From Conchocele bisecta (lineage: Eukaryota > Mollusca > Bivalvia > Lucinida > Thyasiridae), in the NCBI GenBank assembly GCA_029237695.1, contig JAQRGA010000165.1, forward strand, positions 1 through 64,000: a stretch of 64,000 bases of DNA, read 5' to 3'. Positions within the stretch are counted from its first letter, which is position 1. Every line of letters starts with the position of its first letter. The notes under the pieces were generated by a model. The model was not told the origin of the DNA, made no database searches, and was given only the letters and a program-made list of their open reading frames with translations. Shown here in pieces: positions 2,821-60,400 of the stretch. Position numbers and translations under genes: made by a program.

Positions 2821-3430
2821 TGTACAGGTCAGGAACACGGGAGGGGTACGGTACGTTGGTACAACTGTGATATGTTGTACATCACGGGGACAAGGGGGGG
2901 GGTGGCGGGTGGAAGGAGTGACGACTGAGTGTACATTATGTGACATGTTGTATATGTCGGAGACACGGTGACACGTTGTATATGTCGGCAACACGGAAGG
3001 AGTACGGCGCGCCGGTACACTATGTGACATGGTGTACAGGGCGGGGACACAGAAGGAGAACGGCGCGCCGGTACACTATGTGACATGTTGTATATGTCGG
3101 CAAACACGAGTACGTCCCGCCGGTACACTAAGTGACATGTCGTATATGTCGGCAACACGGAAAGAGTACGGTCCGCCGGTACACAATGTGCCATGTTGTA
3201 TATGTCCGCGACAAGGGGTCGGGGGGGGGGGGTGGGGGGGGGGGGTGGGGGGGGTACAGTACGTCGGTACTCTATGTGATATATTGTATATGTCGGCGAT
3301 ACGGGAGGAGTACGGTACGTTATTACACTACGTTATATGTTGTAAATGACGGGGACACAGGATAAGTATGGCCTGCCTGTACACTATGTGACATGTTGTA
3401 ATGTTGTATAGGTCGGGGACACAGGTGTGG
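2820..3430. repeat. ~56 bp minisatellite
   Basis: Roughly ten imperfect copies of a ~56 bp unit built from ACACTATGTGACATGTTG, TATATGTCGGCAACACGG and AAGGAGTACGGCGCGCCGG. The last segment contains the palindrome GGCGCGCC. The array is broken by a long G-run at 3211-3256. ORFs on both strands here are translations of the repeat. Confidence 0.9.
3211..3256 (+). repeat. poly-G tract within minisatellite, quadruplex-prone
   Basis: Runs of about 12, 10 and 8 G residues separated by single T residues, followed by GGTAC. More than four G3 tracts fit the sequence requirement for intramolecular G-quadruplexes. Part of the length could also be a sequencing or assembly artefact. Confidence 0.7.
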
Positions 3431-3439
3431 AGGGGGAAG

Positions 3440-5185
3440 TGCGGCCCATCGGGAGAAGTGCCCCAATAGTGTGTTCCTATTATTGAGACATATATACTAG
3501 ACAACATATACGGGGGTTCATGCCGTCACATTACCCTTAAGGGGTCGCAATAGGGGTCCTGGGGTCACCAGTTGCCAATTTTCGAGTTATTTGTGGCATA
3601 GCCGGATAAAACATACTTCTTTACAAGTGCTTCGGGAGAAGTGCCCCACTCAATCGTGTGTTCCTATTGTTGAGACATGTATACTAGACAACATAAACGC
3701 GGGTTCTTTCCGTCACATTCCCCTTAAGGGGTCGCAATAGGGGTCACCAGTTAGCCATTTTCGTGTTATTTTTGTCATACCCGGATAAAACATACCTGTT
3801 TACAAGTGCTTCGGGAGAAGTGCCCCACTCAATCGTGTGTTCCTGTTATTGAGACATGGATACTAGACAACATAGACGGGGGTTCATGCCGTCACATTCC
3901 CCTTAAGGGGTCGCAATAGGGTTCCTGGGGTCACCAGTTGCCCATTTTCGAGTTATTTTTGTCATACTCTGATAAATACATTTTTTACAAGTGCTTCGGG
4001 AGAAGTGCCCCACTCAATCGTGTGTTCATGTCTTGTTGGGACATGTTATACTAGACAACTTAGACGGAGAGTCATGCCGTCACATTCCCCTTAAGGGGTC
4101 CATATGTCCTACTGGGGTCACCAGTTGACCATTTTCGCGTTATTGTTTTGTACATACCCGGATAAAACATATTGTTTACAAGTCTCTTTGCATCGAAGTG
4201 CCCCACTCAATACGTGTTGTTCCTATTTGTTAGACAAATGTATACTAGACAACATAGACGGGCTTCGTGCCTCACCCCAATCTAGTTCCGCATAGTTGGG
4301 GTGCACATTCCCCTTAGGTCCGCATAGTTTTCGTGCCGGCACAATCTTAAAAGGTCGCAATTTAGTCCAGTCAACAGGGGTAGGCCATTTTCGAGTTATT
4401 TTTGTCTATACCCGGATACACATATTTGTTTACAAGTGCTTCGGTAGAAGTGCCCCACTCAATCGTGTGTTCCTATTGTGAGACATATATACTAGACAAC
4501 TTAGAGGGGGGTTCATGTCGTCACATTCCCTTAAGGGGTCGCAATAGGGGTCACCAGTTAGCCATTTTCGTGTTATTTTTGTCATACCCGGATAAAACAT
4601 ACCTGTTTACAAGTGCTTCGGGAGAAGTGCCCCACGCAATAGTGTGTTCCTGTTATTGAGACATATATACTAGATAACATAGACGGGGGTTCATGCCGTC
4701 ACATTCCCATTAAGGGGTCGCAATAGGGGTCCTGGGGTCACCAGTTGGCCATTTTCGAGTTATTTTTGTCATACCCTGATACATATATTTTTTACAAGTG
4801 CTTCGGGAGAAGTGCCCCACTCAATCGTGTGTTCCTGTTGTTGGGACATGTATACTAGACAACATAGACGGGAGTTTGTGCCGTCACATTCCCCTTAAGG
4901 GGTCCATATGAGGATCCTGGTGTCACCATGCAGTTGCCCATTTTCGCGTTATTTATGTCATACACGGATAAAACATACTTTTTTACAAGTGCTTCGGGAG
5001 AAGTGCCCCACTCAATAGTGTGTTCCTGTTATTGAGACATATATACTAGATAACATAGACGGGCGTTCATGCCGTCACATTCCCCTTAAGGGGTCGCAAT
5101 AGGGGTCCTGGGGTCACCAGTTGTCCATTTTCGATTTATTTTTTACTTACCCGTATAAAACATTAATTTTTACAAGTGTTTTGGG
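3440..5185 (+). repeat. ~185 bp tandem array, plus-oriented block
   Basis: About nine copies of the same unit as 1-1730, in inverted orientation, with the CCCCTTAAGGGG core near 3530, 3714, 3896, 4083, 4700, 4888 and 5076. Copies are well conserved (GTGCTTCGGGAGAAGTGCCC recurs) except near 4260-4380, where one unit has a local duplication and an insertion of GCATAGTT-containing sequence. The block stops abruptly in a half unit near 5185. Confidence 0.9.
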
Positions 5186-6371: not shown

Positions 6372-9300
6372 TCAATGCCATATGGTTTTATGTCTTCTAT
6401 CTTCGGTTCTGCGGAGGTAGTCTTCTCGCTCAGGTTGAAAGGACGTACACCCGGTCAGGAAGTGTTGTCTCGTCTCTGGCTCACTCTCGCAGAGTTTACA
6501 CACCGGATTCACTTTGTATTGGTTGAAGACCGCTCGGTTTCCCTGAAGATCATAGGTACCCGTCAGGAGTCTGCATTTCAGTTGGGCCATTCTGCTGTCG
6601 TGTATATTGTCACGTACAGTGCTCCATATTGGATGGGGTCTACCCACCCGCAGAATCTCTGGGTTGATATATTTCAAGAAAGGTTTTGAAGTTACATCTT
6701 CATACCAGGCGTTGGTAACTTCACTGTAGAGAGCACCGTTGACAGATTTCTTCCACGCAGGTTTTGACGGCGAGTTGGACAGTAGTTGATACGCGGTAGG
6801 AAGATCGTATTTATCAAGTATCATTTTAATTTGATTAAACCAGCTGTATTCATTCGGCGATTTCATTGCAAGTTGTCTTACTGCGATGTCGTATTCAACG
6901 GTTTCATGAACTTTAATTATCTTCAACAAATAACGTTAGCATGCTCTTATGAATAACCTTTTCAATTGGAGGAATACCAAGAAGAGCCAGTACCGCAGAG
7001 TTTGGCGTTTTATCAGGAAGCCCTTGGATTTGCTTGAGGCATTTTCTTTGAAAGCTTTCTAATTTTTCCATTTGCTTTAGATTCAGTTCAAGCGTTTCGA
7101 GTCCAAAAAGCATTCTCGGCAATACTTCAGTTTTCCATAGCTCGGCGCAGATTGACTGTTTCAGCCCGTTGCCACTGTGTAGTCCCGCTCCCATAAGAGA
7201 ATATGCTGCCTTTCTCCCTAAAGATAGCTTCTCATCAATGTCTGCTTTGTTATCTATTGTCCTATTGATCCCTAGATGTGTAGCCTGACTGACTTTTGGC
7301 AGTTCCTCACCCGACATGTAATATTGACTATGAGGAGCCTTAGGATTTGAGTTTTTATAAATTAATATGTTACTCTTTGTATGATTTATACAATAGCGTT
7401 CTCTGTTTGCAAAGTTGTCAACATTGTCTATCATTTGCTGCATTTCATTTGGAGAATGTGTAGTTAAGGCCAGGTCGTCTGCACAGGTAACGTGAGGAAT
7501 GTTAATATATCCAATTGTGGCGCCGGTAAAATTGTTTTCAATTTGGTTTGGAGTAATAGTGGGTTGTTGAAGCGTTTATAGTGCGTCGTTGATAGAACCC
7601 CACCCTGACGAACACCTTGTTTAATAGTAATAGGGTTTGACAGCATGTTTTCCATTTCACTACTGAAGTTAGATCGGTATACATGTCTTTCAGCAGGAGC
7701 CAATCATCTCCGCGTATTCCATCAAGGTATAGCTTCCTCAATAGTGAACTATGGTGAACAACATCAAAACGCTTTTTGCGCGTCCAGCGTAGTTACTATT
7801 AAGGGTCGTTTCATGTTTTTGGATTCTGCAATGACTTCCGACAGAATAAGCGCAGCATTTATTGAAGACTGTCCAGGAGTAAAGCTCTTCTGTAGTTTTG
7901 ACTGAGTTTTGTCCAAGATAGAGTTATGTCTCTGTTGATTATATGTTCAATATTTTCAATATTACCGACGTAACAGTGATCCCCCGATTGAAAATTTGAT
8001 GGGTTTGTGACATCCCCCTTCTTGTAGATTGGAGACAATAGGCCCTCTTTCAAGACCGGTGAGACAGATTTTGCTCTTGCCATGTAGTTGAGGAGATCGA
8101 CGAGGAAGACAGTTAGTGATTTACCGCCAAATTTCAAATGTTCACTAGTGAGATCCATAGAGTCTGCTGCTTTATTAGTGTTTAGACGTGTCAAGGCATG
8201 TTCCACTTCATCAGTAGTAATATGCGTCAATTGGATGTTCGTATGATTACAGATATTTTCAATGGAAGCTAAATCCTCTGCAAATGTATTTTTCATCGTC
8301 TCGTCGAACTTTTCGTTGTCGAGGTTCTCTGCCAGACTTTGAAAGTGTGATGCCCAACCTTCACATACCTGTTCATAGCTATCCAGGGATTCACCATTTA
8401 CAACTAGACATTTTACCGAAGCTTTTCCAGTTTTTCGTTGGTTACGTACGAGAGAGTGAAATTTCTTCACGTTATCCTTAATGCTCATTATATTTTCAAG
8501 TTTACTGACTTTTTGTGAATTTACATATCGTCTTTGTTCCTTTTTCAGTTGTCGTTTTACTTCAGTTCTACGTTTGACAGTGGGATGTTTCAACGAAGTA
8601 GGTTTTCCTGCAATCCTCCACTTCCACCATGCTTGCTTACTTTCTTTCATCGCTTTCGCAATTCTTTCATTCCATGGCCTGTTCTTACGACGCTTCACTG
8701 TATGATGGGTTTTGTGATTTGGTATACTGCTTTTGGTTGCTTCCTTTAGTGTTGTAGAGAGATGTCCCAAGGAGCATATCAAATCTGTACCGGACGCTGG
8801 CGGAGTAAAAGACTTCAGATTATTACTGATATATGAGGCATATATGTCTTTATTACACTCATCCCATTTCGGTTTAACTTTTCGAGTCTGTGGATTATTG
8901 TCTTTGCCTTTGAGTTTCACTTTCAGAGTCATCGTTACTGCTTTATGGTCTGAGGTGTTACTAGAAGACGAGCTGTCGTTTTCAACTGTGACATTCAGGA
9001 CTAGGACTTTAGCTCGGTCGCAGCAGAGAATGTAATCTAATTCCGCCGAATCTCTCCCGTTTTCATTCATGGAAAAACGTAGGCGTTCCACTTTGATGTG
9101 AGCTGAGATTATTCCTATTACAGAAGCTGGAGAGTAAAGAGTCCTGCTCATTACCAGCACGATTCTGGAGTGATGCGTTCATATCTCCTAATATAATCAT
9201 TGCGTGTGTATGTCTATATTTTTCAATGATTTCATCCAACTCTTCAATAACTTCAACGAAATGTTGCGAAGTTCGAGAGTTCCTTGAAGGCATGTAGACA

Positions 9301-9660
9301 TTACAAAGACAGATTGGCGTTTCAGTAAGAATTTCAGTGACGATTATTCGATTACTGCCGTCGTTACAGTTCTTAAAGATTAAGCTAGAGTCATTGCGTG
9401 TTAGTGTAGCAACACCCCCATACCCGCGTGGCTTCTGAACTGGTGGAATAGGATCATTATCGTCTACCGCTTTGGCAAAGCTGCTGAAGTCACAGTCTAG
9501 ATCATTCAATTTCTCTAGTTGGAACGAAAACAGCCACGTCTCCTGTAGGCATATAATATCGGTTTGTTTCAGTAAGTCCAGTACATAAAGATTGTTTGTT
9601 TCAACGTTTTTTACATTCAGGGTTGTACACTTTAGATGTCTGACATCTCCCTCGCAGTCT
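6372..9660 (-). pseudogene. LINE ORF2: APE endonuclease plus reverse transcriptase, broken
   Basis: The endonuclease starts in the 9500-9660 region (QETW motif), continues in 9063-9509 with LGDMNAS, and ends in 7859-9160 with LDYIL and SDHKAV. The reverse transcriptase follows: a finger segment with LLSPIYKKGD near 8030, motif A (TTLDAQKAF) near 7775 before a frameshift, RQGGVLS in 7464-7703, and the catalytic CADDLAL near 7480. After the thumb region (6913-7443) a Cys-rich CKLC...H...C motif closes the protein near 6480. Changes of frame at about 9100, 7750, 7600, 7455 and 6920 make it non-functional. It would nick target DNA and prime reverse transcription from it. Confidence 0.85.
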
Positions 9661-33522: not shown

Positions 33523-36500
33523 ATGGAATTAAAACTAGGAAGCTTTAATGTTAAGGGTATGGGATCAAAACACAAACGGCTACACCTTTTTCAATGGATA
33601 AAAGACAATGATTACGATATATGTTTCATACAAGAAGCGCATTTCACAACAAGTGATAAAGCCCAGTGGGAAAAGGAATGGGGTGGTGATGGGTATTTTA
33701 GTGGGGAATATAGCAATAAAGAAGGTATATGTATTTTAATAAAACCGGGGCTTGATTATAGAATGAAACATTATGAACAGGTCATGACTGGTAGAATTCA
33801 ATCTCTTAAAATATGCATTTCTGAAAAAGATTATACATTAATCAATATATATGGTCCAAACGAAAACAGTCTAAGATTTTACCAAGATCTCGATACATAT
33901 ATAGAAACAGTGGAAGTAGATACTTTAATAATAGGGGGCGATTTTAATATAATTTTAGATCCAGATTTAGACAAGAAAAATGGCATAAGAGACACAAATA
34001 AGAATATAAGAGAGAAACTATTGTCAATAATTAATAAATATGAACTACATGATATCTGGAGAATTCTTAATCCTAATACAAGGAAATTCACATGGCATTC
34101 AAATACTAAACCACCAATATTCTGTCGTTTAGACTATTTTCTAATATCTGAAAATGTAATTAACAGAGTAACAAAAAGTAAAATTACTACATGGTTTAAG
34201 TCTGACCATTCTTTAGTATATTTTTGTTTACAGACTCAATCTAATGAAAGGGGTCCGGGATATTTTAAGTTAAATAATAGTCTACTTTTAAAAACGGAAT
34301 ACCAACAACTAATTAGACGAAGTATTTCTACCATTGCCGAAATCAACCAGCATGCTAATCCAAATACGCTTTGGGAGATAATTAAAGGCATAATACGAAA
34401 TGAAACGATAAAATTTGCGTCTACTGAAAAGAAAAAAGATTTAAAAATGGAAAATAAATTAATAGAGGAAATAGATAAATTAGAAGCAGACTACTCCAAA
34501 AAAATATCGGAAGATATTTTAATAGAATTAAACACCAAAAAAGATATGTTACAGTATTTATATGAACATAAAGTTAGAAGAATTATGTTAAGATCAAAAG
34601 CCGAATGGATTGAGGGTGGGGAAATGAAGAAAAAGAGTATTATAAAAAATTATATACGAAAAAAGAAGCTGAAAATACAAATCACAATTTTTTTTCAAAT
34701 GATAATGGAGTAAACAGATTATCACAAGAAAATAAAGAATTATGCGAAGGCAGCTTTTCAGAATACGAATGCAGTAACTCTTTAAAGGAAATGAAAAACA
34801 ATAAGAGCCCAGGCTCAGATGGTCTGACTGTGGAATTTTATAAAATATTTTGGAATGACATAAAAAGATATTATATGGATTCTTTTAAATTTTCATTAGC
34901 AAATGGATCACTAAGTGAATTGCAAAAACAGGGTGTAATAACATTAATACCAAAAAAGGATAGCGATTTATCTATACTTACGAATTGGAGACCTATATCA
35001 TTACTTAATGTGGATTACAAAATTGCATCAAAGGCCATAGCAAACAGAATTAAAAAGGTTTTACCAAATATAATAGATGATTCACAAACCGGATTTCTTA
35101 AGGGAAGGTACATCGGAGAAAATATTAGAACTCTATACGAATTAATGGACCATTTGAATGAAAATGAATTACCGGGTTTATTTTTCTTCGCAGATTTTGC
35201 AAAGGCATTTGATACTGTTGAACATTCTTACCTCTTAAAAGTTATGAAACATTTGCATTTTGGCAACGACATTCTAAATTGGATTAAGCTTTTTTACTCT
35301 GATGCAAAAAGCTGTGTTACAAACAATGGTTACTTATCGGATTTCTTTTCAATAAATAGAGGCGTACGTCAAGGCGGTCCTTTATCACCTTACCTTTTTA
35401 TTATCGCCATTGAAATACTATCCAAAGCAATTATTAATGAAAAAGATATAATAGGGGTAACAATTTATGATATAGAAATTAAAAACACAATGTTTGCCGA
35501 TGATGCAACTTTTGTGACAGATGGTACAAGAAAATCATTTGAAAAGTTAATATACATAATAGATGAATTTAGTAAAATATCTGCTCTCAACCTTAACACA
35601 AAAAAATCCACTGTAATGCGCGTTGGTGCCTTAAAAAAATGTAGATCTGATTTTCTGTCCGGATAAGAAATTCATTTGGACTTCTCTTAGTGCAAAAACG
35701 TTAGGGATTACGTTCTTAAATAATAATACAGATATCCACGAATATAACATCCTTCCTAAAATAGTAGAGTTTGAACAGTGTCTTGATAAGTGGAAACATA
35801 GAAACTTAAGTTTACTTGGAAAAATTACAGTTATTAAAACGTTTGCTGCTCCAAAATTAATATATCCATTAACAGTTTTACACGACCCTCCAGACAACAT
35901 GATCAAAAGAATTAAACAAAAATTATTCGATTTTTTATGGGACAGTAAGCCTGATAAAATTAAAAGAAACATCATCATCCAATCCTACGAAAAAGGGGGA
36001 TTCAAAATGTTATATATAGATAGTTTGATAGCATCAATAAGAGCATCATGGGTAAAACGAATATGTGACACATCAAACAGAGGCAAATGGAAACAACTTT
36101 ATGAAAAAAAACTTGAAAGATATGGTGGATTTTTTCTCTTTGAATGTAACATAAAAGCAGAAGATGTAAAACATATAGCGGAAGAAAATAAGTTTTTAAA
36201 TAATGTTTTAAAATCCTGGTCACATATTAACTATTCCTCCAGAAATGACACAGTATCAAAAGAAATACTTTGGAAAAATTAATTTCCAATTTAAAGCATC
36301 AAAACAAAACAATCTTTTTCAAAGATTGGTACAATAAAGGCATTAAATATGTTGAACATCTATATGACTACAGAGTAAGGAATTTTCTACGATTTACTGA
36401 TTTTACAGCAATATTCAATATACGTCAGGACGATTTTATAAAATATCAAAGTATTGTGAACAGCATAAGTCCATTATGGGCCGAGAAAATAAAAACAGAA

Positions 36501-37157
36501 AGCATCAACACAACTCCACAATCTACGTCGCTTATATCGAGAGTACAAGATAGCAAATATGTGAACAAATTACTATATACAAGACAAACAAACAAACAAA
36601 ATATAGAAGAAAAAAAATCTCAACAAAAATGGACAAATGAATTTTCTGATGATAATTTATGCTGGCAACAAATTTACACATTAGCTTTCGATTGTACAAT
36701 AGACTCAACATTACGCAATTTCCAGTATAGATATAATGCGTATCATTGGGACAAATAAACTACTCTATCGTTGTAATATAGTAAATAGCAGTCTATGTTA
36801 TTTTTGCTCTATGTATGTTGAGAGCATAAAACACATGTTCTGGGAATGTATGCATGTGCAACATTTTTGGTCACAGCTTCGAAATTATCTAAATGAAAAA
36901 GACTTAACATATGAAATAAATTTTCGAAGTATTTCTCTAGGAATAACAAATAAGGCACTGATGGTAAAACAATTGAATTTTATAATTTTGTTAGCGCAAA
37001 ATACTATATTTTCAAATGTAAATATGAAAAGCATGATATTACTTTCGAATCTTTTGTAAGTTACTTGAAAAATAGAATACATATAGAAGAAGAAATAGCG
37101 ACAATGAAAGACAAAAGAGAACAGCATATTATTAAGTGGGGCAGGTTTAATATATAA
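33523..37157 (+). pseudogene. Tx1/L1-like LINE ORF2: endonuclease-reverse transcriptase, frameshifted
   Basis: The endonuclease occupies residues 1-240 (SFNVKGMGS, FIQEAHF, LINIYGPN, IIGGDFNIIL, CRLDYFLIS, FKSDHSLV). After a frameshift cluster near 34615-34700 the reverse transcriptase reads NNKSPGSDGLTVEFYK, LIPKKDSD, NWRPISLLNVDYK, FADFAKAFDTVEH (motif A), RQGGPLSPYLF and catalytic FADDATF. Another shift near 35636 leads into the thumb/connection region, followed by shifts near 36280 and 36750. The C-terminus has CYFCSMYVESIKHMFWEC, a C-x2-C...H...C motif seen in L1/Tx1 proteins, and ends IIKWGRFNI at 37157. Total of about 1210 codons is normal for the group. Confidence 0.88.
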
Positions 37158-50013: not shown

Positions 50014-50385
50014 TCTAACTTTGGTCGGACATGACCTCGTATCATAACAAAATAACATGTTTAACATTGTAATTTGCTATGCTTTCTATGTATTTCTGCA
50101 GGATAATGATACTTCTCAAATGATCATATGAACTTGTCACTACAATATTGACGTTAGAGCCTTAAACACATTATTTCACTTGTAATGATACGAGGTTGTG
50201 TCCGACCTAGGAAAAGCAGCTGCAATTCGATATTCTTTGCATAATTATGTTCTAACTATGCTATTTTAGTAAGATAACAATAATTCTCAAATGAACATGG
50301 GCATTTTCTGCCAAAATATTCACATTAGCGTTAATAAAATTTTGGAATTTGTTATGATACGAGGTTGTGTCCGACCAAAGTTAGA
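50014..50385. mobile_element. 372 bp MITE with internal duplication
   Basis: Inverted ends of about 38 bp: the left reads TCTAACTTTGGTCGGACATG, and the right is its reverse complement with two mismatches. A third copy of the terminal segment (ATGATACGAGGTTGTGTCCG) lies in the middle at about 50190-50210, so the interior is a ~160 bp direct duplication. No ORF. Confidence 0.8.
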
Positions 50386-50779
50386 TCTCATGTACCGTCT
50401 GTGACGTCTGTCATCGGGGTTCATCGGTCCAGTTCGATCAGGAACCACTTGCCATTGCAAATAATTGTGGCAGTTTGACACAATTATCGTTTGTTTGTAC
50501 CTGCGTATATTTCTTGTGACTTCATCAGTTCTGGTGTATTTCATATGTCCAGTGGCAGTTTGCTACAAACGGACGGTGCTATTTCAGAATAAAATTTGAG
50601 GAAAAACATATTGTTGTTTTCCTTTTCATGTTGTGCTGGATTTAAATATTGGAACTTCTAGATCTATATAAATTATAATTTATTGAAAGGGTGACTATTT
50701 ACTGATATCTTTGATAATTTTTGCAATTTATATTTTGTCCCGTGCGGTATTTTGACGCGACTTGTACTTGTCAATCGAA

Positions 50780-52224
50780 ATGGTTGTAAATGTCAACACC
50801 GCGTCAGAAGAAGAGTTGCGAGTTTTGCCAGGAGTCGGTCCGAAGACAGCTGCAGTCCTTGTCCAGGTTCGGAATAAATATGGCCGCATGACCAGAGAAC
50901 TGTTTAGCATGGCGATCGGTGGGACGATGTCCCCTGCGCTACTTGAACTCGTTGTTTTTGAAGAGACTGTGACTTGGCAACAACAACAAGAAATAGTAGA
51001 CCGATTATCTGAAGATACAGATGCAGACTCAGGTACTGATGAAACAATAACATCTGAAGTTGACATAATGGCAGCTGTTAGGCCGAAGGATAAACAACAA
51101 AATACCGAATGTTCTTGGACAAAATCAGCACACCACGACAAATATAGTTGCGAAACCAAACAAAAGAAGATGGATCCTGAAGCAAAGTACAAGATGCACA
51201 GCAGACATGATAGCCGTAGTTCGTCTAGAGGTAGTTTACTTCGGTTGACCACTGCAACAGACAAAGGCCGATATAGTCGTCACAGGAAATCACATGGAAG
51301 TCGAAGTCACAGGCATGCACGCGACTAAGGTACTCACAAAGCATCGCGAGATAGGAGCGCAAGATAGGAGATAGGAGCGCAACCAGACTCCATCGTCATC
51401 AAAGAAAATCAAAGCACCACGAGTACCGAAAGTCAACTTATCGTCATAGAAGCCCATCATCCTCTGGTGGTAGTTTATCACCATCTCGCAGACATAGAAG
51501 GGATTCTAAAAGAAGCCGATCCCCATCTAGCTTCTCTAGATCAGTGTCCAGGCACAGACCAGACCGTCGCCCTCACCATGTTAGGGCATCGCGTCATCGG
51601 CAGCCTTCTCACTTTTATTACAATTCGAACTCAGATTCTGACAGTTTGTCGGATGATGATTTCTCGGATGATGCGCATGGTGATCCGCAACGATTACCGA
51701 AGAATTTACATTATGACGGTAGGACCAGCTGGCTGTCATTTAAACAAAAATTCAACAACTACAGGAAGGTGAACCGGTGGTCGGACAGTGAGTGCCGAGA
51801 TTATCTGAACTGATGTTTGGAGGGCAAAGCTCTCGATTATTTTACCATCGAGACACATATGGGCCAGAGCTATACATTTCGCGACATAATGCGAAAGATG
51901 GAGAGCCGGTTTGGGGCAAAGGAGTTACCTGAAACAAGTAGGGTGAAGTTCCAGCAGGCAGTACAAAAACCTGGGGAGTCCCTAGAAGATTGGGCTGACA
52001 GGGTGTTAACCCTAGCCACCCCAGCATTTCGAGACATGCCAGATTCATTTGGCCAAAGGGAGGCTATTTCAAAATTTTGTCAAGGTGGCCTTGATAGAGA
52101 AGCTGGAAAGCATGCTTGTTTTGAATGGCCCAGAACCATACAGCAGGCAGTTGATCTGGTGAGACACCACCAGTATGTTAGTCAGGTTGTGGATGGTAAA
52201 AAATCAAAAAATAAAGAAGTATGA
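50780..52224 (+). pseudogene. retrotransposon Gag with N-terminal helix-hairpin-helix, broken
   Basis: The ATG at 50780 is chosen because the track of similarity starts there; the frame upstream lacks an ATG. Residues about 5-45 hold ASEEELRVLPGVGPKTAA, a ComEA-like helix-hairpin-helix motif (LPGVGPKTA is the hairpin). A Ser/Arg/His-rich basic region follows to 51328. After a frameshift a second SR-rich stretch leads into the capsid-like region (51544-52224), with an in-frame TGA at 51811-51813 inside it. The capsid-like part shows WLSFKQKFNNYR, YTFRDIMRKMESRFG, FQQAVQKPGESLEDWADRVL and REAISKFCQGGLD, typical of Ty3/Gypsy Gag. HhH motifs bind DNA non-specifically; the role here is inferred. 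Confidence 0.75.
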
Positions 52225-52582: not shown

Positions 52583-55500
52583 ATGCAGCAGCAGGAACTT
52601 CAAGAGATGAAGCCAGTGACAGGGGCTGAGACGCAGCTTAGCGGCTCAGTTACCGCCAGCCAAGGGGAGACAATCGCAGTTCATGTCTTGAATGCGGGTT
52701 CGTCTATGGTTGATGTTGTAATAGGAGAACGTCCGGTAAAGGCAAGAATTGACTCAGGAGCGGAGGTTACAATTTTGTCTTCAGTTGTTTACGAACAGCT
52801 AAAGAGGAAACCGGGGAAGGTTGATGACATCAATATGCAATTGGCTGGCAAGGATTCTGTCCTGAAGGGATTTGTGACACAGCCCGTTAACATACGGTTA
52901 GGGACACAAACTTTCAATGAGCGGGTCTATGTGGAACCAATCTGTGATAACATGCTGCTGGGTCATGACTTTTTACATCATTTCAAAGCACTTCTGGACT
53001 TGCATTCAGATTGTTTGTGGGTCAACGGCGAACGCGTTCCTTTGACGACTACTTTCAAAAACAACAAGCCGCTGGTTGCACGGGTCATGGTCTCCAAGAG
53101 GACAGTAGTGCCCCCAAACTCAGAGGTCCGAATCAAATGCACCATGAATGGCGAGTTGGAAGAGTACTGTATTCAGCCATCAGATGGCTTGAAGCTACTA
53201 ATGCCACAAGTAGTATGTGCAGCGCATAGGGACCCAGTGGTGTGTTTGGTAAACCCCTCAAATGGTTTCAAAACTATTAAAAAGGGGACTATTGTGGGCA
53301 ACGCACACGAAATAGCAGCCATTTACGAAATGGAGGACGAGCAACAATCATATGCAAGTGACAGTGAGTGTCCGCTTGTTGGGTCTGTTAAACCCAATGG
53401 ACGGGCATTTCGTGACAATTTTGTGGATCCGTCAAGGGATATGGCAGGTTGCCATTCATCTTCGGAGGCGACGGGTTTAGCAAGAACAGCTTATGACAGG
53501 GATGGTTTTTCGGACAGATGCGTAGGTGGGGCAGGCGAAGCCAATGTGGTACCACACCATCTACAGGAAGTATTCAATTCGTCAATTGAGAAGCTGACAG
53601 AGGATCGGTCTAAGTCGCTAGCCAGAATACTCTGCGAATTTTCAGACGTATTCGCAGAAAACGAGGTTGACTTGGGCGACTTAACGGCCATAGAGCACGG
53701 AATAGATACTGGTGACGCAAAGCCTATAAAGCAGCGCATGAGACGCACACCTGCTTGTTTTGCAGGGGAGGAGGAGGCTCATCTAAAAAAGATTTTAGAT
53801 GCCGGCGTCATTCAGGAGAGTATTTTCGAGTGGGCATCTGCTCCGGTGTTGATTCGAAAACGTGACGGCACGGTGCGCTGGTGTATAGATTACAGAGCTC
53901 TCAATAATGTGACCGTCAAGGATACGTTTCCACTTCCTCTAGTCGAGGATTGTTTGGATGCGTTGTCGGGAAACGTATGGTTTTCGAAATTAGATGCCAA
54001 CGCTGCATATTGGCAGGTCAAGGTCAGACCTGAGGATAGGAAGAAGACTGATTTCGTCACAAAATATGGTCTGTTCGAGCATGTCAGAATGGACTTTGGT
54101 TTAACCAATGCCCCAGCAACATTTTCTCGGGTTGTTAACCTGGTGCTTCGGGGACTGACATGGAAGACCGTATTGGCGTTTTTGGATGACATTCTTGTCA
54201 TGCGGAAATCGTTCGATGACCATCTGAACAACTTGGCAGAGGCGTTCATTCGTTTCCGAGAGCATGGACTGAAGTTGAAACCACAGAAGTGCCTTTTCTT
54301 TCAACCGGAGGTGGAATTCCTAGGGAGATTAGTTAACGGCAGCAGCATGTCCATGTCTGACAAAGATGTACAAGTAGTTGCGGAGTCGCCAGTTCCTTCA
54401 AATTCCAAAGAGGTGGAACGGTTCCTGTGATTCGTGAATTACCATCGAGCCTTCACCAAAGACTTCGCGAGACTGGCACAGCCCTTGTATGCGTTAACCG
54501 GCAAGAATCAGTTCAGATGGGGTGATGAATAGCAGAGGGCGTTTGAAGCATTGCGAAAGAGTGTGGCTGAACCACCTGTGTTGGGGCTTCCAAACCATAC
54601 AGATCATTTCGTGCTAGATACAGATGCTTCTGATACAGCTATCGGTGGTGTGCTCAGTCAAGTCCAGAACGGTGTGGAAAGGGTTATCGCTTTCAGCAGT
54701 TTTTCATTGGTTCCGGAGCAGAAGCGGTACTGCACCACCAGGAAAGAGCTATTGAGTATAGTGAGATTCACTAGGCAGTTTAAATATTACCTGTTAGGTA
54801 AAGTCTTCACTGTTCGGAGTGATCATTCCAGTTTGGCTTGGTTATTGCGGTTCAAAGACCCCCAGGGGCAGTTAACGCGTTGGATGGAGGAGATGTCACA
54901 GTATCATACGATCGTGCAACACCGTCCTGGAGTGAAAAATGGAAATGCGGATGCATTGTCGAGACTACCAGATAATGTGGTACCATGTCCATCGTATGTC
55001 GCTGGTATTAAACCAGAGGATTTGCCCTGCGGCGGTTGTCACTACTGTTCCCGTGCCCATTCCCAGTGGGGTACCTTTAGGGAAGATGTAGATGATGTAG
55101 TGAATTTGGCCGAATCAGGTAGCCTGAAACTGGGTGTTGCAGATGATGTGGCCAAGTCAGTATCAGTTGTCATGGAGATGGCGACCGGGGCAGGTTGCTC
55201 CAGCGACTTTGTAGTGCAAATTTCAAATATTACAGCTGGAGATTTGCCAACAGCAGACAAGCAATATAGAGCGGATATCATGACCAGCCATGAACCACTG
55301 CTGCCGGAATCAGAAGCTGAAGACTCCGAGCCTGGGTCAGGAGCTTGGGGTGAAGATCATGGTCAGTTTGATCATGGTGTAGAACGGTCCAACAGTACGG
55401 TCGTGAACCATGCTTGTCAGTTTGACGAGGTGGAAGATGACCTCGGTGCCCTAGTATTTGAGCCAAGTGGGACCGCTGTTGATATAGGTATGAATGAACT

Positions 55501-57082
55501 TTCGGTCACAGTGTGTGATAGTGTAAAGCTGCCAGAAGAGGCCACGGAAGTGAACCATTGTTGCTGGGGCTTCTCATTTAAGGAACTGTGTGAGGCTCAA
55601 AGAGAAGATGGGAGTCTGAGTCTCATCTACTATTTTCTAAATGAAGGGAAGCAGCCAGAAGAAGGAGAGTTTTTCTTGTCCAGCCCGGAGGTGAAGTTCT
55701 ACTGGATCAACAGAGACATGTTTAAGCTGGTATATGGTGTGCTATTTCGAGTTAAGTCAGACTTAGCCGGTTCTGAACTGGTGGTGCCTACGTCGTTACA
55801 GCAACAGGCCATACAATGGCACCATGATATACCATATGCAGGTCACCAGGGCGTGTCGAGAACAAAGGAAAAACTCAAGGAAATATTTTTCTGGTATCAT
55901 CTTTCTAGAGACGTCAAGTCATACGTACTCAGCTGTGATGTCTGCAGTCGGAACAAGAAAAACAAGTGCTACGGTAAAGTCCCATTGACAGTGTACCAGG
56001 CAGGTGCACCCATGGAGAGAGTCCACGTGGATTTCTTAGGCCCCCTACCTAAGACAGCTAATGGCAATGAACATTGTCTTATGATGGTGGACCAGTTCAC
56101 CAAGTGGGTGGAGTGCGTGCCATTGCCTTCTCAGAAGGCAGGCATCACAGCTAAAGCAGCTATAGACACGTTCTTCACTCGGTTCGGGTGTCCATTTGAG
56201 CTGTTTTCCGATCAAGGTCGCAACTTCCAGAGCAAAGTGTTCGAGGCTGTTTGCCAGGCACTTCAGATCCACAAAGCCAGGACAACCCCTTATCGACCGT
56301 CGGCCAATGGCGAGGTCGAGCGGTTTAACAGGACTCTAATGGATGCTGTTCGGTGTTTTATCGGCAAGCATCACAACCGTTGGGACGAGCATATTCAGCA
56401 GATTGCAGGGGCCATTAGATCGTCGGTTAATCGTAGCACAGGCTTCACGCCAAACAAGCTGATGTTAGGTCGTGAAGTGAATACACCAGCACAGTTGATG
56501 TTCCCAAACGTGCAGGAAAAGCATGAGGACATGGAGGAGTATGTACAAAAACTCACAGGTTCCATGAAGGAGGCTCATCAGAGAGCTCGTAAAACACTAC
56601 AAACATCCGTGAAGCGGATGAAGAGAAATTATGACCTGAGAGTGTTGCTGCAGCCTTACAATGAGGGGGATATTGTGTACCTCATGGATACAGCTGTGCT
56701 GAAAGGGAAATGTAGAAAATTGTGTTCTCCGTGGAAGGGTCCTGCTGTCATTGTAAAACAGATTTCAGCCTATTTGTACCGGGTTAAACTAAAGAACGCA
56801 GTTTTTGTGGCCAATCACGACCGCATGATGCCCTGTCGAGACCGGAAGTTGCCTGCATGGATTACTCGGGGAAGTAATGAAACCACTTTGTATGAAGACG
56901 TGCAAGATGATGGGAAGCTGTACTGTGTCTGTCGGAAACCGCGGGAGGGTCGTTTTATGATTCAGTGCGACCACTGCAATGAGTGGTACCACGGGTCTTG
57001 CGTTAAAATTTCCGCGTCGGACGCGCTCGACATTGACAAGTACAAGTGCGTGGCTTGCCGCAGGCCACATGGTAATCAGTAA
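52583..57082 (+). pseudogene. Pol: retropepsin, RT, RNase H, integrase, PHD finger; two in-frame stops
   Basis: One frame of 1500 codons with stops TGA at 54428-54430 and TAG at 54530-54532. Retropepsin: RIDSGAEVTIL and LLGHDFL. RT: WCIDYRALNNVTVKD, SKLDANAAYWQV, LTNAPATFSRV and catalytic FLDDILV. RNase H: LDTDASDTAIGGVLSQ and RSDHSSLAWL. A ~230-residue acidic spacer follows. Integrase: HHDIPYAGH...CDVCSRN zinc domain, VDFLGPLP, LFSDQGRNFQS and PSANGEVERFNRTL (D, D, E). The C-terminus ends in a complete PHD finger: YCVCRKP, MIQCDHCNEWYHGSC, YKCVACR. The protein would process Gag-Pol, copy RNA and integrate cDNA. Confidence 0.92.
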
Positions 57083-57101
57083 TCTCTCATTTCAGGTCGA
57101 G

Positions 57102-59155
57102 ATGGCGGAAAACGACCAGCAGCATGTGGAACAGTTACTGAGCAAGCGTGACATATACAAGAACGCGGAACAGTTTGCCATGAACATTGGACTGCTGATG
57201 GGTACAGACAGGGAGAAAGCTATGAAGCTGCTTGAGGCCATGGTACAACTGGCTAGACACAAAGTGAACCATCGACGATGGCTAGTCCAGTTGTCTGTGG
57301 CTTTGGATGGGTTAGCACTCATGGATAGGAGCTGGATATCAAAGACTGTCCATCCGTTGTCAGAGCTGCCTGCTGCGAAGGAACAGACATATGATCCGGA
57401 GTCGGGGCGAAAAGATATAAGGTTGCAGGAAGATCCGTCCATTGAGAGGCTTTGTTTCGTGGGAGACGAACTAATAGACGAGGACAAGCTGCTTCGGTCA
57501 CCAAATGTCCATAGCAATACGCAGGACGATAGTGAGGATCTTGGGCCAGATCCAGACATTCTTTTGGGGACTCCTAGTCCGGTTAAATCAGCTCATGAGG
57601 AACGTATGGAGGCAGTTTGTCACACGGGTACGGATAATGCACCGGCTAAGAGTTGTAGCCCTGTTAGCAGCGACCCACCCAAAGAAAGATCAGAGCGGGC
57701 AGGTTGCTCCACTGTTCTAAGTGCTGAAATTACTACCCCTAAAACGAAGAGGGTGGAAAGGTTGACAGTTTGTCGCACCATTTCCAGCGAGTTCCGTAGC
57801 ACCTCGACTAGGCAGAGAATACCCAAGAATGAGAGCCAGCCCAGGATGGATATAGTCGAACGGCCAAGAACTATAGATAGAGATGCCAGGGCAGTTTGCC
57901 ATTCGGTTGATTTCTATGCTGGTGGTGACGACACGTCTAAGGCAAGGTGTGCAGATGAACACAGGACTGTTAGTGCGATTGGTGGTAAGAGAAAAACAGA
58001 GTGCGAGTGCAAGGACTTATTCAGGTGGCCACATGGCTGTTAGGAAGACCAGGATCCCTCCAGGAGTTACTGGACCTAGTTAATAGACAACATTGTCTGG
58101 AGGACTATGAACCTGTGACCACCACGTCATCGATGTGGGAGAGTATGAGAGCCTTCTGCAACTTCTTGGATCGGCCTGTGCCGCGGGAGTTTACCCTGGC
58201 ACCATTGAACTGCGAAGGTGCACTGTTACACTGGAGAGTTCTGTACATGTTGGCCGCCCTTCTGTCATCGGGAGACAGGGACTACTGGAGAGAAAGGTTT
58301 GCTCAACCGGGAGAAGTGAAGGCCCTGCCGGAGGCGGCAGACAGCCACTTCCATGCGGACCGACTAAGTCTAGCAGCAAAAGTGCCGAAAGGCAATATGG
58401 TTAAAGTGCTAGCGCTTGGTTCGGTGGACGACAGCCGTGAGGTTAACATTGTGGCAGCGGTTGCGAATTTCTGTGACCCCGAGACGTTCCCAAGAAAAGA
58501 GGAGTTGGCAAAATTTCCTCCAGAGGTTATTGTGTCTGAACGTATTCATCCCAAACATGCTAACAGGTCGCGGAGATACATTACTGACGCTTTAGACAGG
58601 TTGGGCAGTTTGCTCGCCTGTCCCCAGGTGGCAGAAGTTGGGGAAGTAGGCATTCATCACTCGACGCACGAATCAAGATGGGCAGATCAGATGAGCTTAA
58701 TGAGGAAGATACTGCCCCGTGTTCCTTCCGACAAAGTACTGGTCCTGCACTGTCGCAAGATTCCGGGCAACAATGGGATTGAGGCTCATCAGTTACTCCT
58801 GCACCTCCTGAAAGAAGTCCCCAGGTCCCAGAAAGTACACCTATACGCATTCAGTGGGAACAAGCTCATAGTGCAGTGGTGGCTGGAGGCCTTCCCAGGG
58901 ACTAAATTTAGCTTCAACAGAGGGGTATGACGTTTCGATGCCGATCAGGTGGCCGCCCTAGTCAGCTTGACAGAGACCAAACTTCTCTTGGAGACAGACG
59001 CACCGTACTTCTGCCGCAGGGACCAGGCGTTTTATGCCCCGCGAGAGTTATATGATGCGGCAGAGCTGGTGGCCAGGCACCGAGGCGTGACGGCAGAGCG
59101 GATCCTGTCTGTAACTAAAGACAACACTTTGCGGCTGTATGGGAGGTTGGCGTAG
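57102..59155 (+). pseudogene. retrotransposon ORF3 with C-terminal TatD-like nuclease domain, broken
   Basis: Starts 19 bases after Pol (MAENDQQHVEQLL). The first ~310 codons (to 58043) are helical, then low-complexity Ser/Thr/Arg-rich, with no known domain. A frameshift near 58001-58043 leads to a second frame (58001-59155) with an in-frame TGA at 58928-58930. That part matches a TatD-type metal-dependent hydrolase: DSHFHADRL (58336), AEVGEVGIHHS (58630), VLVLHCRK (58735), HLYAFSGNK (58845), LLLETDAPYF (58983) and a C-terminal helix with GVTAERILSVTKDN. Relative to the family, one metal-site His (expected before FSG) is Tyr, and the Asp after GEIG is His. No host gene is seen here, so the ORF belongs to the element by position. 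Confidence 0.75.
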
Positions 59156-59291: not shown

Positions 59292-59500
59292 AATAAAGAA
59301 GGGAGTAGTGTTGTGTGTTACGAAATGGTCGAGGGGCGAAGGGACGGGAGCTGGCGTTTCGGGACGAGATTTGGTAAGCACGAGGCTTCTCGGTGGATGA
59401 TGGCGAGAGAACAAGAATACGTTCTTGAGACGACCTGTGAATATCTGCCTATTATATTATAATCACCGATTGTTATATTGAGATTAAAGTTATGTTACAT
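59292..59500 (+). repeat. putative polypurine tract and 3' LTR start
   Basis: AAATAAAGAAGGGAGTAG (59291-59308) is purine-rich and is followed by TGTTGTGTGTTACGAAATGG, a TG start as expected of an LTR. The right end is not fixed because no second LTR is visible in the window. ATATTATAATCACCG and an AAGTTATG stretch near 59450-59490 are the last parts I would assign. Confidence 0.45.
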
Positions 59501-60400
59501 AGAGTAAGTGCTCATTGTTATGTACCCCATATATTACATTAGGACCGTAACAATGATAAAGTGTGTAACGTATGGGAAAATACTGAAACAAAGTGTAACA
59601 ATGTGCAACAGAGTTGTATTTCAAAATATCCTGCAAGTTACTTACAGAATTTCTCCATATTTTACATATTCCATTTCCTGGCATTTCAAGTTTCATCCAT
59701 TATGTATTTATATATTCTGCATATATCATTGCTACAATGGAACATATATTTTACTATATAATATATAATTCTGAATGCACATTTTAGTTATCCTTCAGTG
59801 GACCGTCATCCAGTGTGTAGCTGACATACCTGGTGTCAAAGTATAGCTAATATTAAATTAATAAATAAAAAAACACAGCAGTTCGGTGATAAGTTCGGTA
59901 GTAGATGTTTACTTGAATTTTGTTGTTGTTGTATGTCTGTAATTCAGGCGCTTATTTTTCGTCTCAATCTCTCTACAGCCACAAAGACTGCAAGAGCATT
60001 GTTTCGATTGCTCGACTTGATTGTGGGCTGTGGTTCTTGGTGTGTTTAGTACGACGATCAGTTTGTACCATACTACCTAGGCCCACAACAGTTAGTACCA
60101 ATTTTTTACCTTTAATGCGTTTCTCTATATAGCTTACGAGAAGTTTGAGGGGAAAGAAGTTAAAATGAGTGGGTGTAAAGGTACATGCACACTCAGTAGG
60201 CACAATCTGTTATTTAGGGGAATTAACTAAGTGTATAATTGCGTCACTATTCCACGAGTTCTAAAAATTACGAGTGCCCGTTATACAGATATATAACCAT
60301 TTAGTAATATTTATTTCAGGAAGCCCAGGTGTGGTGTCTGTGTCTTTAATGTGGCATCCCATAGTGTATCACTAGGTACAACTCCTTTGTATTACTCTTT
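59501..60400. other. unassigned AT-rich sequence
   Basis: No gene, tandem repeat or RNA recognised. Several 60-86 codon frames are chance ORFs. Confidence 0.4.

Follow-up and report, generated by a model that had tools for sequence, protein, structure and literature searches.

A TatD-like nuclease gene as third open reading frame of Ty3/Gypsy retrotransposons in the bivalve Conchocele bisecta

Retroviral and errantiviral env genes are third open reading frames (ORFs) that lie between integrase and the 3' LTR and are expressed by splicing, and chromoviruses carry a chromodomain at the C terminus of their integrase. DEDDy exonucleases have a nuclease fold unrelated to TatD. LTR elements with enzymatic third ORFs are already known: in those of bdelloid rotifers, ORF3 is reported to encode a DEDDy exonuclease or a GDSL esterase whose invariant residues are described as intact (Rodriguez et al. 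2017, PMC5408684). Orchid Ty3/Gypsy elements are reported to have captured an m6A demethylase domain (PMC9289625).

Among cellular TatD proteins, human TATDN1 and TATDN3 and the E. coli TatDs are reported to have AP endonuclease activity, the two human enzymes also 3' exonuclease activity, and class II members are described as having an HxH motif and two metals (PMC10085689). TATDN2 is reported to be an RNA exo- and endonuclease which resolves R-loops, and tatdn2 to be expressed in germ cells (PMC12709183).

We describe here a Ty3/Gypsy lineage in which ORF3 encodes a class II TatD domain. It has the map position of env and likely its splicing, but it is a TatD enzyme, and simple hydropathy points to neither a signal peptide nor a clear membrane anchor. 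As in chromoviruses, the integrase ends in a domain of histone-reader type, which here is a PHD finger. The rotifer elements likewise have an enzymatic third ORF after pol, a nuclease included; theirs is described as family-specific and missing from the earliest branches (PMC5408684), whereas the TatD ORF3 spans two lineages and several families. The orchid elements are also Ty3/Gypsy elements with a captured enzyme and differ in being from plants, in the enzyme being an RNA demethylase and in a capture described as recent (PMC9289625). ORF3 shares the HxH, E, H, H, D ligands with TATDN2 and other class II TatDs, and TATDN2 is described as having a long disordered N terminus (PMC10085689, PMC12709183); what sets ORF3 apart is a clade of its own (support 100/99), a C2H2-like finger and its place in an LTR element. 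A TatD kept across families and two integrase lineages is apparently new, as we found no earlier report of TatD in an LTR element in the open PMC literature, searched mostly by title and start of abstract, with subscription papers and Repbase outside its scope.

The window (the whole 64,000-nt stretch analysed, positions 1 to 64,000 of contig JAQRGA010000165.1) contains one copy of a Ty3/Gypsy (Metaviridae) LTR retrotransposon, recognisable on the + strand between about 50386 and 59541 (Table 1). Pfam matches in the window and in the loci fetched from the genome give the Metaviridae pol order of protease, RT, RNase H and integrase; in the window copy, the two pol parts belong to one frame split by a stop. 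Homology to another copy, L011, begins at 50386. The original prediction placed the TatD-like ORF 19 bases after the integrase ORF and upstream of a purine tract and putative LTR, all of which is borne out: 57082 is the end of pol ORF2 and 57102 the position of the ORF3 ATG, and tract and LTR follow where expected. A purine or G tract directly 5' of the 3' LTR is also seen in the other loci with paired LTRs. Elsewhere in the window, a non-LTR retrotransposon with an endonuclease domain lies at 33523-36758 (+ strand), and an RT-like non-LTR retrotransposon, judged by eye, at 6372-9509 (- strand).

Table 1. Parts of the retrotransposon copy in the window
Feature	Position	Strand	Evidence or remark
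Inverted-repeat insertion	50014-50385		38-nt arms, 95%; adjoins 5' border of recognisable element sequence
ORF1 N-terminal part, helix-hairpin-helix domain	50762-51328	+	PF12836, E 1.2e-8
Gag capsid-like fragment	51817-52224	+	PF14893 1.6e-5, PF03732 3.1e-4; both below curated cut-off
Pol part 1, aspartic protease and RT	52583-54430	+	PF13975 1.3e-9, PF00078 4.9e-30
Pol part 2, RNase H, integrase (H2C2, rve) and PHD finger	54551-57082	+	PF17917 6.4e-30, PF17921 7.9e-18, PF00665 2.7e-13, PF00628 2.8e-10
PHD finger, integrase C terminus	56924-57058	+	PF00628; nearest PDB entry PHF2 PHD, 1.8e-16
Splice-acceptor-like pyrimidine-rich tract and AG	57083-57095	+	Follows the pol stop and precedes the start of ORF3
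ORF3 first part, N-terminal domain and variable region	57102-58043	+	Frame lost near deletion point at 57999
ORF3 second part, pre-TatD region and TatD nuclease	58001-58927	+	PF01026 7.5e-15, residues 114-306; ends at in-frame stop 58928
ORF3 end, C-terminal quarter of TatD	58931-59155	+	PF01026 1.2e-8
Polypurine tract	59295-59305	+	Read from sequence
3' LTR, 233 bp	59309-59541	+	91.9% match to L011 LTR; homology between close copies stops there

The TatD-like domain itself, proposed from a series of motifs and put forward for a profile search, was recovered by Pfam TatD_DNase (PF01026) in two pieces, profile positions 2-175 in 58001-58927 and 189-253 in 58931-59152, on either side of an in-frame TGA (58928-58930). 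They score 55.4 and 35.2 bits against a curated cut-off of 27, and the same profile reaches 92.6-129.7 bits in six other copies. The frame 58001-59155, first taken for ORF3, does hold TatD but is not the natural ORF, which starts at 57102: the window copy lacks about 240 bp at 57999/58002 that are present in L011, and because of this loss the TatD part lies in another frame. In the copy L009, the missing stretch holds a zinc finger. No second copy of the window LTR that could be the 5' LTR is found elsewhere in the 64 kb. The window copy is a dead remnant: its 5' LTR was not found, pol is interrupted by a stop, and ORF3 has both a stop and the deletion of about 240 bp.

In the window's own 1.89-Gb assembly, 142 entries were obtained with the window TatD as query (454 candidates, 128 scored) and at least 151 matches with PF01026 (420 candidates, 150 scored), those listed all being above the cut-off. 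After both sets were merged, and second and N-terminal pieces of places already listed were dropped, there were at least 188 TatD places, three of them bacterial-type (two on scaffold C895, one on C521). Scaffold C895, of at least 1.7 Mb, has two full-length bacterial 16S matches besides its bacterial-type TatDs, and a further 16S match lies on C676; both are probably bacterial scaffolds in the animal assembly. Bacterial contamination as the source of the element genes was rejected: the three bacterial-type TatDs among the places listed are on C895 and C521, the former with bacterial 16S.

Twenty of the best TatD places were fetched with their surroundings. Integrase with a PHD finger lies upstream on the same strand in 18 (L009-L018, L020-L027), most of which have RT, protease or gag still further upstream. 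The exceptions are L019, an internally deleted copy where LTR sequence is directly joined to ORF3, and L028, where TatD was found without any recognised element part. Paired LTRs with a 4-bp target duplication bound five loci of four families: L011 (100.0% identity between LTRs) and L009 (97.5%) of the window's family A, L017 of family B (97.4%), L022 of family C (99.5%) and L027 of family D (97.0%; here the duplication depends on reading the LTR end at TA). For L013 and L026, no LTR pair was found in the pieces fetched. The LTR termini of the five loci are TG...TA, against the TG...CA of the usual criterion, which we treated as variation and did not use to exclude membership. At least one insertion of this lineage is very recent.

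In all five, TatD stands between integrase and the 3' LTR, the arrangement that was to be looked for in intact copies. Enclosed as it is by paired LTRs with target duplications, TatD is no host exon next to an element, and ORF3 belongs to the element, as originally proposed.

Approached from the other side, among the 94 best matches to the integrase-PHD region (6102 candidates, 94 scored; 99 entries less five second pieces of split matches), 61 are followed by a listed TatD, 740-4957 bp further downstream on the same strand (median 1707). Follow-up found a downstream TatD for one more, and the nearest TatD of another is in opposite orientation. Inspection of 3.4-3.5 kb downstream of 11 seemingly TatD-less matches revealed TatD or a piece of it in eight (L029, L030, L032, L042, L043, L044, L046 and L047); in that span L041 and L045 have no TatD domain and only another part of ORF3, and L031, with no TatD downstream, runs into an inverted second integrase-PHD. 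TatD is thus seen in 70 of 94 and not in three others that were inspected, with 21 outside inspection; among the matches looked at, related elements without ORF3, which had been named as grounds against the idea, are rare. Many copies have a decayed ORF3, which dead insertions would be expected to show but which gives no sign that ORF3 is needed.

A second lineage, represented by L034 and L035, has an integrase 42-43% identical to that of the window, in which PHD gave no match, and further downstream an open TatD frame of 527 and 533 aa. Since this lineage also carries TatD, the capture is older than the split of the two lineages or happened twice. Between integrase and ORF3, L034 has an antisense PARP1-like ORF (3027-4220; zf-PARP, PADR1, BRCT) bordered by perfect 46-bp direct repeats.

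The metal ligands are conserved across families as judged by alignment of 34 sequences (33 loci and the window; eight of the 34 were themselves queries, and many copies are decayed), where the six positions are kept, in order, in 28/28 (H), 27/28 (H), 29/30 (E), 29/30 (H), 25/30 (H) and 29/30 (D) of the sequences that cover them. The N-terminal HxH, and not (G/A)xN, places the domain in TatD class II by its first and second histidines. All six ligands occur together in one or more open copies from every one of the five families (A-E) and in both loci of the second lineage, and a profile of nine copies aligns to YcfH (1yix, 3.5e-19) with HxH, E, H, H and D in register. The Tyr and His that had cast doubt on the metal site are present in the window copy and only there among the 34. 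At these two positions the usual residue is found in 25/30 and 26/30 covered sequences, the other exceptions being different changes, and a degenerate metal site as family trait was rejected.

Nine open TatD domains were compared in pairs. Each of the four pairs that set family D against family E has a dN/dS of 0.18-0.21 (dN about 0.30, dS 1.5-1.7), indicating purifying selection on the TatD domain between these families. Of the other 27 pairs between families, 13 have saturated synonymous sites and the remaining 14 lie at 0.16-0.45, and the five within-family pairs range from 0.16 to 0.65 on few changes. The integrase tree recovers B+C (87/88), D+E (100/100) and A with D+E (87/87); the TatD tree has the same B+C (98/98) and D+E (92/97), with family A unresolved and a warning about its long branch. 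Where the trees resolve, TatD has been inherited together with pol. Because of its stop, the window copy is in neither the TatD trees nor the dN/dS set.

Open ORF3s reach 765 aa in L009 (family A) and 750 aa in L022 (family C). Their parts are an N-terminal domain, a variable linker that is basic in places, a C2H2-like zinc finger, a stretch that by eye appears helical, and the class II TatD. The C2H2-like pattern precedes TatD in 7/7 ORF3s or parts examined from this genome and in 9 of 22 relatives (those of P0001-P0065 with at least 120 residues before HxH).

A pyrimidine-rich YAG lies 1-15 nt before the ORF3 ATG in all five families, with 11-13 of 15 pyrimidines, when the start is taken as the ATG adjoining the acceptor-like site. 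Only 3.8% of 3826 ATGs in the same loci reach 11 pyrimidines, a background that understates chance because the open frame has earlier in-frame ATGs in families A (two), D (one) and E (one), with none in B and C; nor are the five families, being related, fully independent. In the second lineage, L034 has 11/15, and L035 has 10/15 at one start and nothing at the other. Candidate splice donors in the five leaders were unconvincing, scoring at best 7 of 9, with none that good in two of them. From the acceptor-like sites we infer that ORF3 is probably made from spliced RNA.

The idea that ORF3 stands in place of an envelope gene holds for its map position only: in 16 sequences, many of them partial, neither a signal peptide nor a clear membrane anchor is seen by simple hydropathy. 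Over these, mean hydropathy of the first 60 residues is at most 0.77 and the best 19-residue value ranges from 0.78 to 1.93. An env gene is not supported by these values, but four of the 16 exceed 1.6, so that a membrane role retains some likelihood.

In a protein search by profile (8000 candidates sharing most words scored), 200 proteins were found at E ≤ 1e-5. The best 120 of these include named bivalve proteins from Mya arenaria (TATDN2), Ruditapes (TatD-like) and Mytilus coruscus (tatD), uncharacterised or hypothetical ones from Dreissena, Pinctada and Crassostrea gigas, and others from the urchin Lytechinus pictus and from MAGs of the lucinid symbionts Thiodiazotropha and Sedimenticola. 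Also among them, the nearest cellular relative named by its source is the TATDN2-like P0075 (2.8e-32), against 1.7e-19 for the best bacterial-named match, lucinid-symbiont MAG entries aside. The window TatD alone gave 0 of 4912 candidates at E ≤ 0.001, a single-sequence search of PDB led nowhere, and two viral contig scans (queries A1 and A4) had no confirmed match. One locus in a Bacillales MAG (genome contig scan, query A3; 27% identity) was taken as unrelated.

An unrooted tree of 32 TatDs (eight copies from this genome, ten chosen relatives, two TATDN2-like and 12 bacterial-type proteins; no TATDN1 or TATDN3) has a 100/99 branch that separates the eight copies and ten relatives, interleaved, from the bacterial and TATDN2-like proteins. 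The clade includes proteins of Mya, Ruditapes, Mytilus and Dreissena and one from a sea urchin. Within the same unrooted sampling it stands apart from P0075, called TATDN2-like by its source, and the unnamed P0076, which join each other at 100/98. The statement in the original prediction that TatD annotations are frequent in bivalves agrees with the relatives in Mya, Ruditapes, Mytilus, Dreissena, Pinctada and Crassostrea, of which the four placed fall in the clade.

Several relatives of ORF3 or of the integrase are filed under Candidatus Thiodiazotropha or Sedimenticola MAGs (P0003, P0004, P0009, P0011, P0012, P0014, P0033, P0084, P0128, P0155, P0186), and these probably represent host-clam DNA in the MAGs. 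It is probable that some mollusc genes annotated as "TatD" or "TATDN2", like TatD proteins filed under lucinid-symbiont MAGs, belong to such elements. In the giant squid, a TATDN2 gene is drawn next to transposon-like genes in the Hox region (PMC6962438) and may be a copy of this ORF3.

The window PHD finger is closest in PDB to that of PHF2 (Table 1), followed by BPTF, PHF8, DIDO1 and CXXC1, all of which we take to be H3K4me3 readers. It has the residues of the aromatic-cage pattern (Y...M...W). PF00628 was found in 114 of the best 120 of 686 relatives of the integrase-PHD region, a count biased by the query, which included PHD; these best 120 come from Nucella, Haliotis, Pinctada, Mytilus, Lytechinus and the crinoid Anneissia, among others. 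Pfam matches in the window at E up to 1 include no chromodomain after the integrase, where the PHD finger is found instead. The finger probably steers insertion to H3K4me3 chromatin, and a PHD-tailed integrase would allow a direct test of histone-mark-guided insertion in animals. By title and start of abstract, no report of a PHD finger at the integrase C terminus of such elements was found in the part of the open PMC literature surveyed.

As to function, a TatD third gene suggests that the elements use a nuclease of their own in their life cycle, and raises the question at which step of retrotransposition RT, RNase H and integrase have to be supplemented by a further nuclease. ORF3 is a captured class II TatD of an animal Ty3/Gypsy lineage, and we think it fairly probable that it is produced by splicing and acts in the nucleus on the element's own nucleic acids, a reading favoured because of the activities reported for TATDN1, TATDN3 and TATDN2. 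Spliced subgenomic RNA, with the acceptor-like site just 5' of the start as for env genes, would give a protein which enters the nucleus together with the integrase complex and, with Mg or Mn like other TatDs, may trim or resolve cDNA 3' ends or flaps and integration gaps. Alternatively, it could process the RNA of RNA:DNA hybrids, an activity reported for TATDN2. The main rival is counter-defence, in which ORF3 would cut host RNA or DNA structures (piRNA precursors, R-loops, cGAS-type substrates) and so help the element to escape germ-line silencing. The closeness to TATDN2-like P0075, the R-loop-resolving RNase activity and germ-cell expression reported for TATDN2 (PMC12709183) and the separate reading frame outside pol speak for it; the conserved place with pol and the co-inheritance fit a role in the element's own cycle equally well, and we regard counter-defence as unlikely.

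A non-catalytic use is less likely again. TatD would then have been retained to bind nucleic acids or for its structure, perhaps for nuclear escort or as an envelope stand-in, which would suit an ORF3 with a zinc finger, basic stretches and further domains, and a fourth histidine that is the least kept ligand; against it, complete ligand sets occur in every family and in both second-lineage loci. That a host TatD exon or retrocopy lies beside the element by chance, or that the assembly is at fault, could be imagined for a single locus, and two of the first 20 loci have no integrase. With many loci in two lineages, TatD inside LTR pairs with target duplications, and one of the two integrase-less loci an internally deleted copy, we give this practically no credence, and the five LTR-bounded loci led us to reject the host exon or chance neighbour. 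To return to the nuclease acting on the element's own nucleic acids, a wider form of it seems possible, if short of probable: a large, old and still mobile lineage, its integrase tailed by an H3K4me3-type PHD finger, would require a spliced TATDN2-like nuclease for transposition, with RNA:DNA hybrids, cDNA ends, or host guide RNAs or R-loops as targets, and part of the mollusc "TatD/TATDN2" genes would be its gene.

ORF1 starts with a helix-hairpin-helix (HHH) domain in families A, B and C, the match being at the cut-off in L017 (1188-1799; 4e-6) and just under it in L036 (1392-1763; 1.5e-5). One family D ORF tested is a gag with CCHC zinc knuckles and had no HHH match. The protein P0196 of Mytilus galloprovincialis is annotated as "COMPASS component SPP1", yet it has integrase domains and a PHD finger and is probably a misnamed element protein. 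Another protein, P0229, is a Ty3/Gypsy-type pol and has an RNA 2'-phosphotransferase (KptA/Tpt1) domain between integrase and PHD finger.
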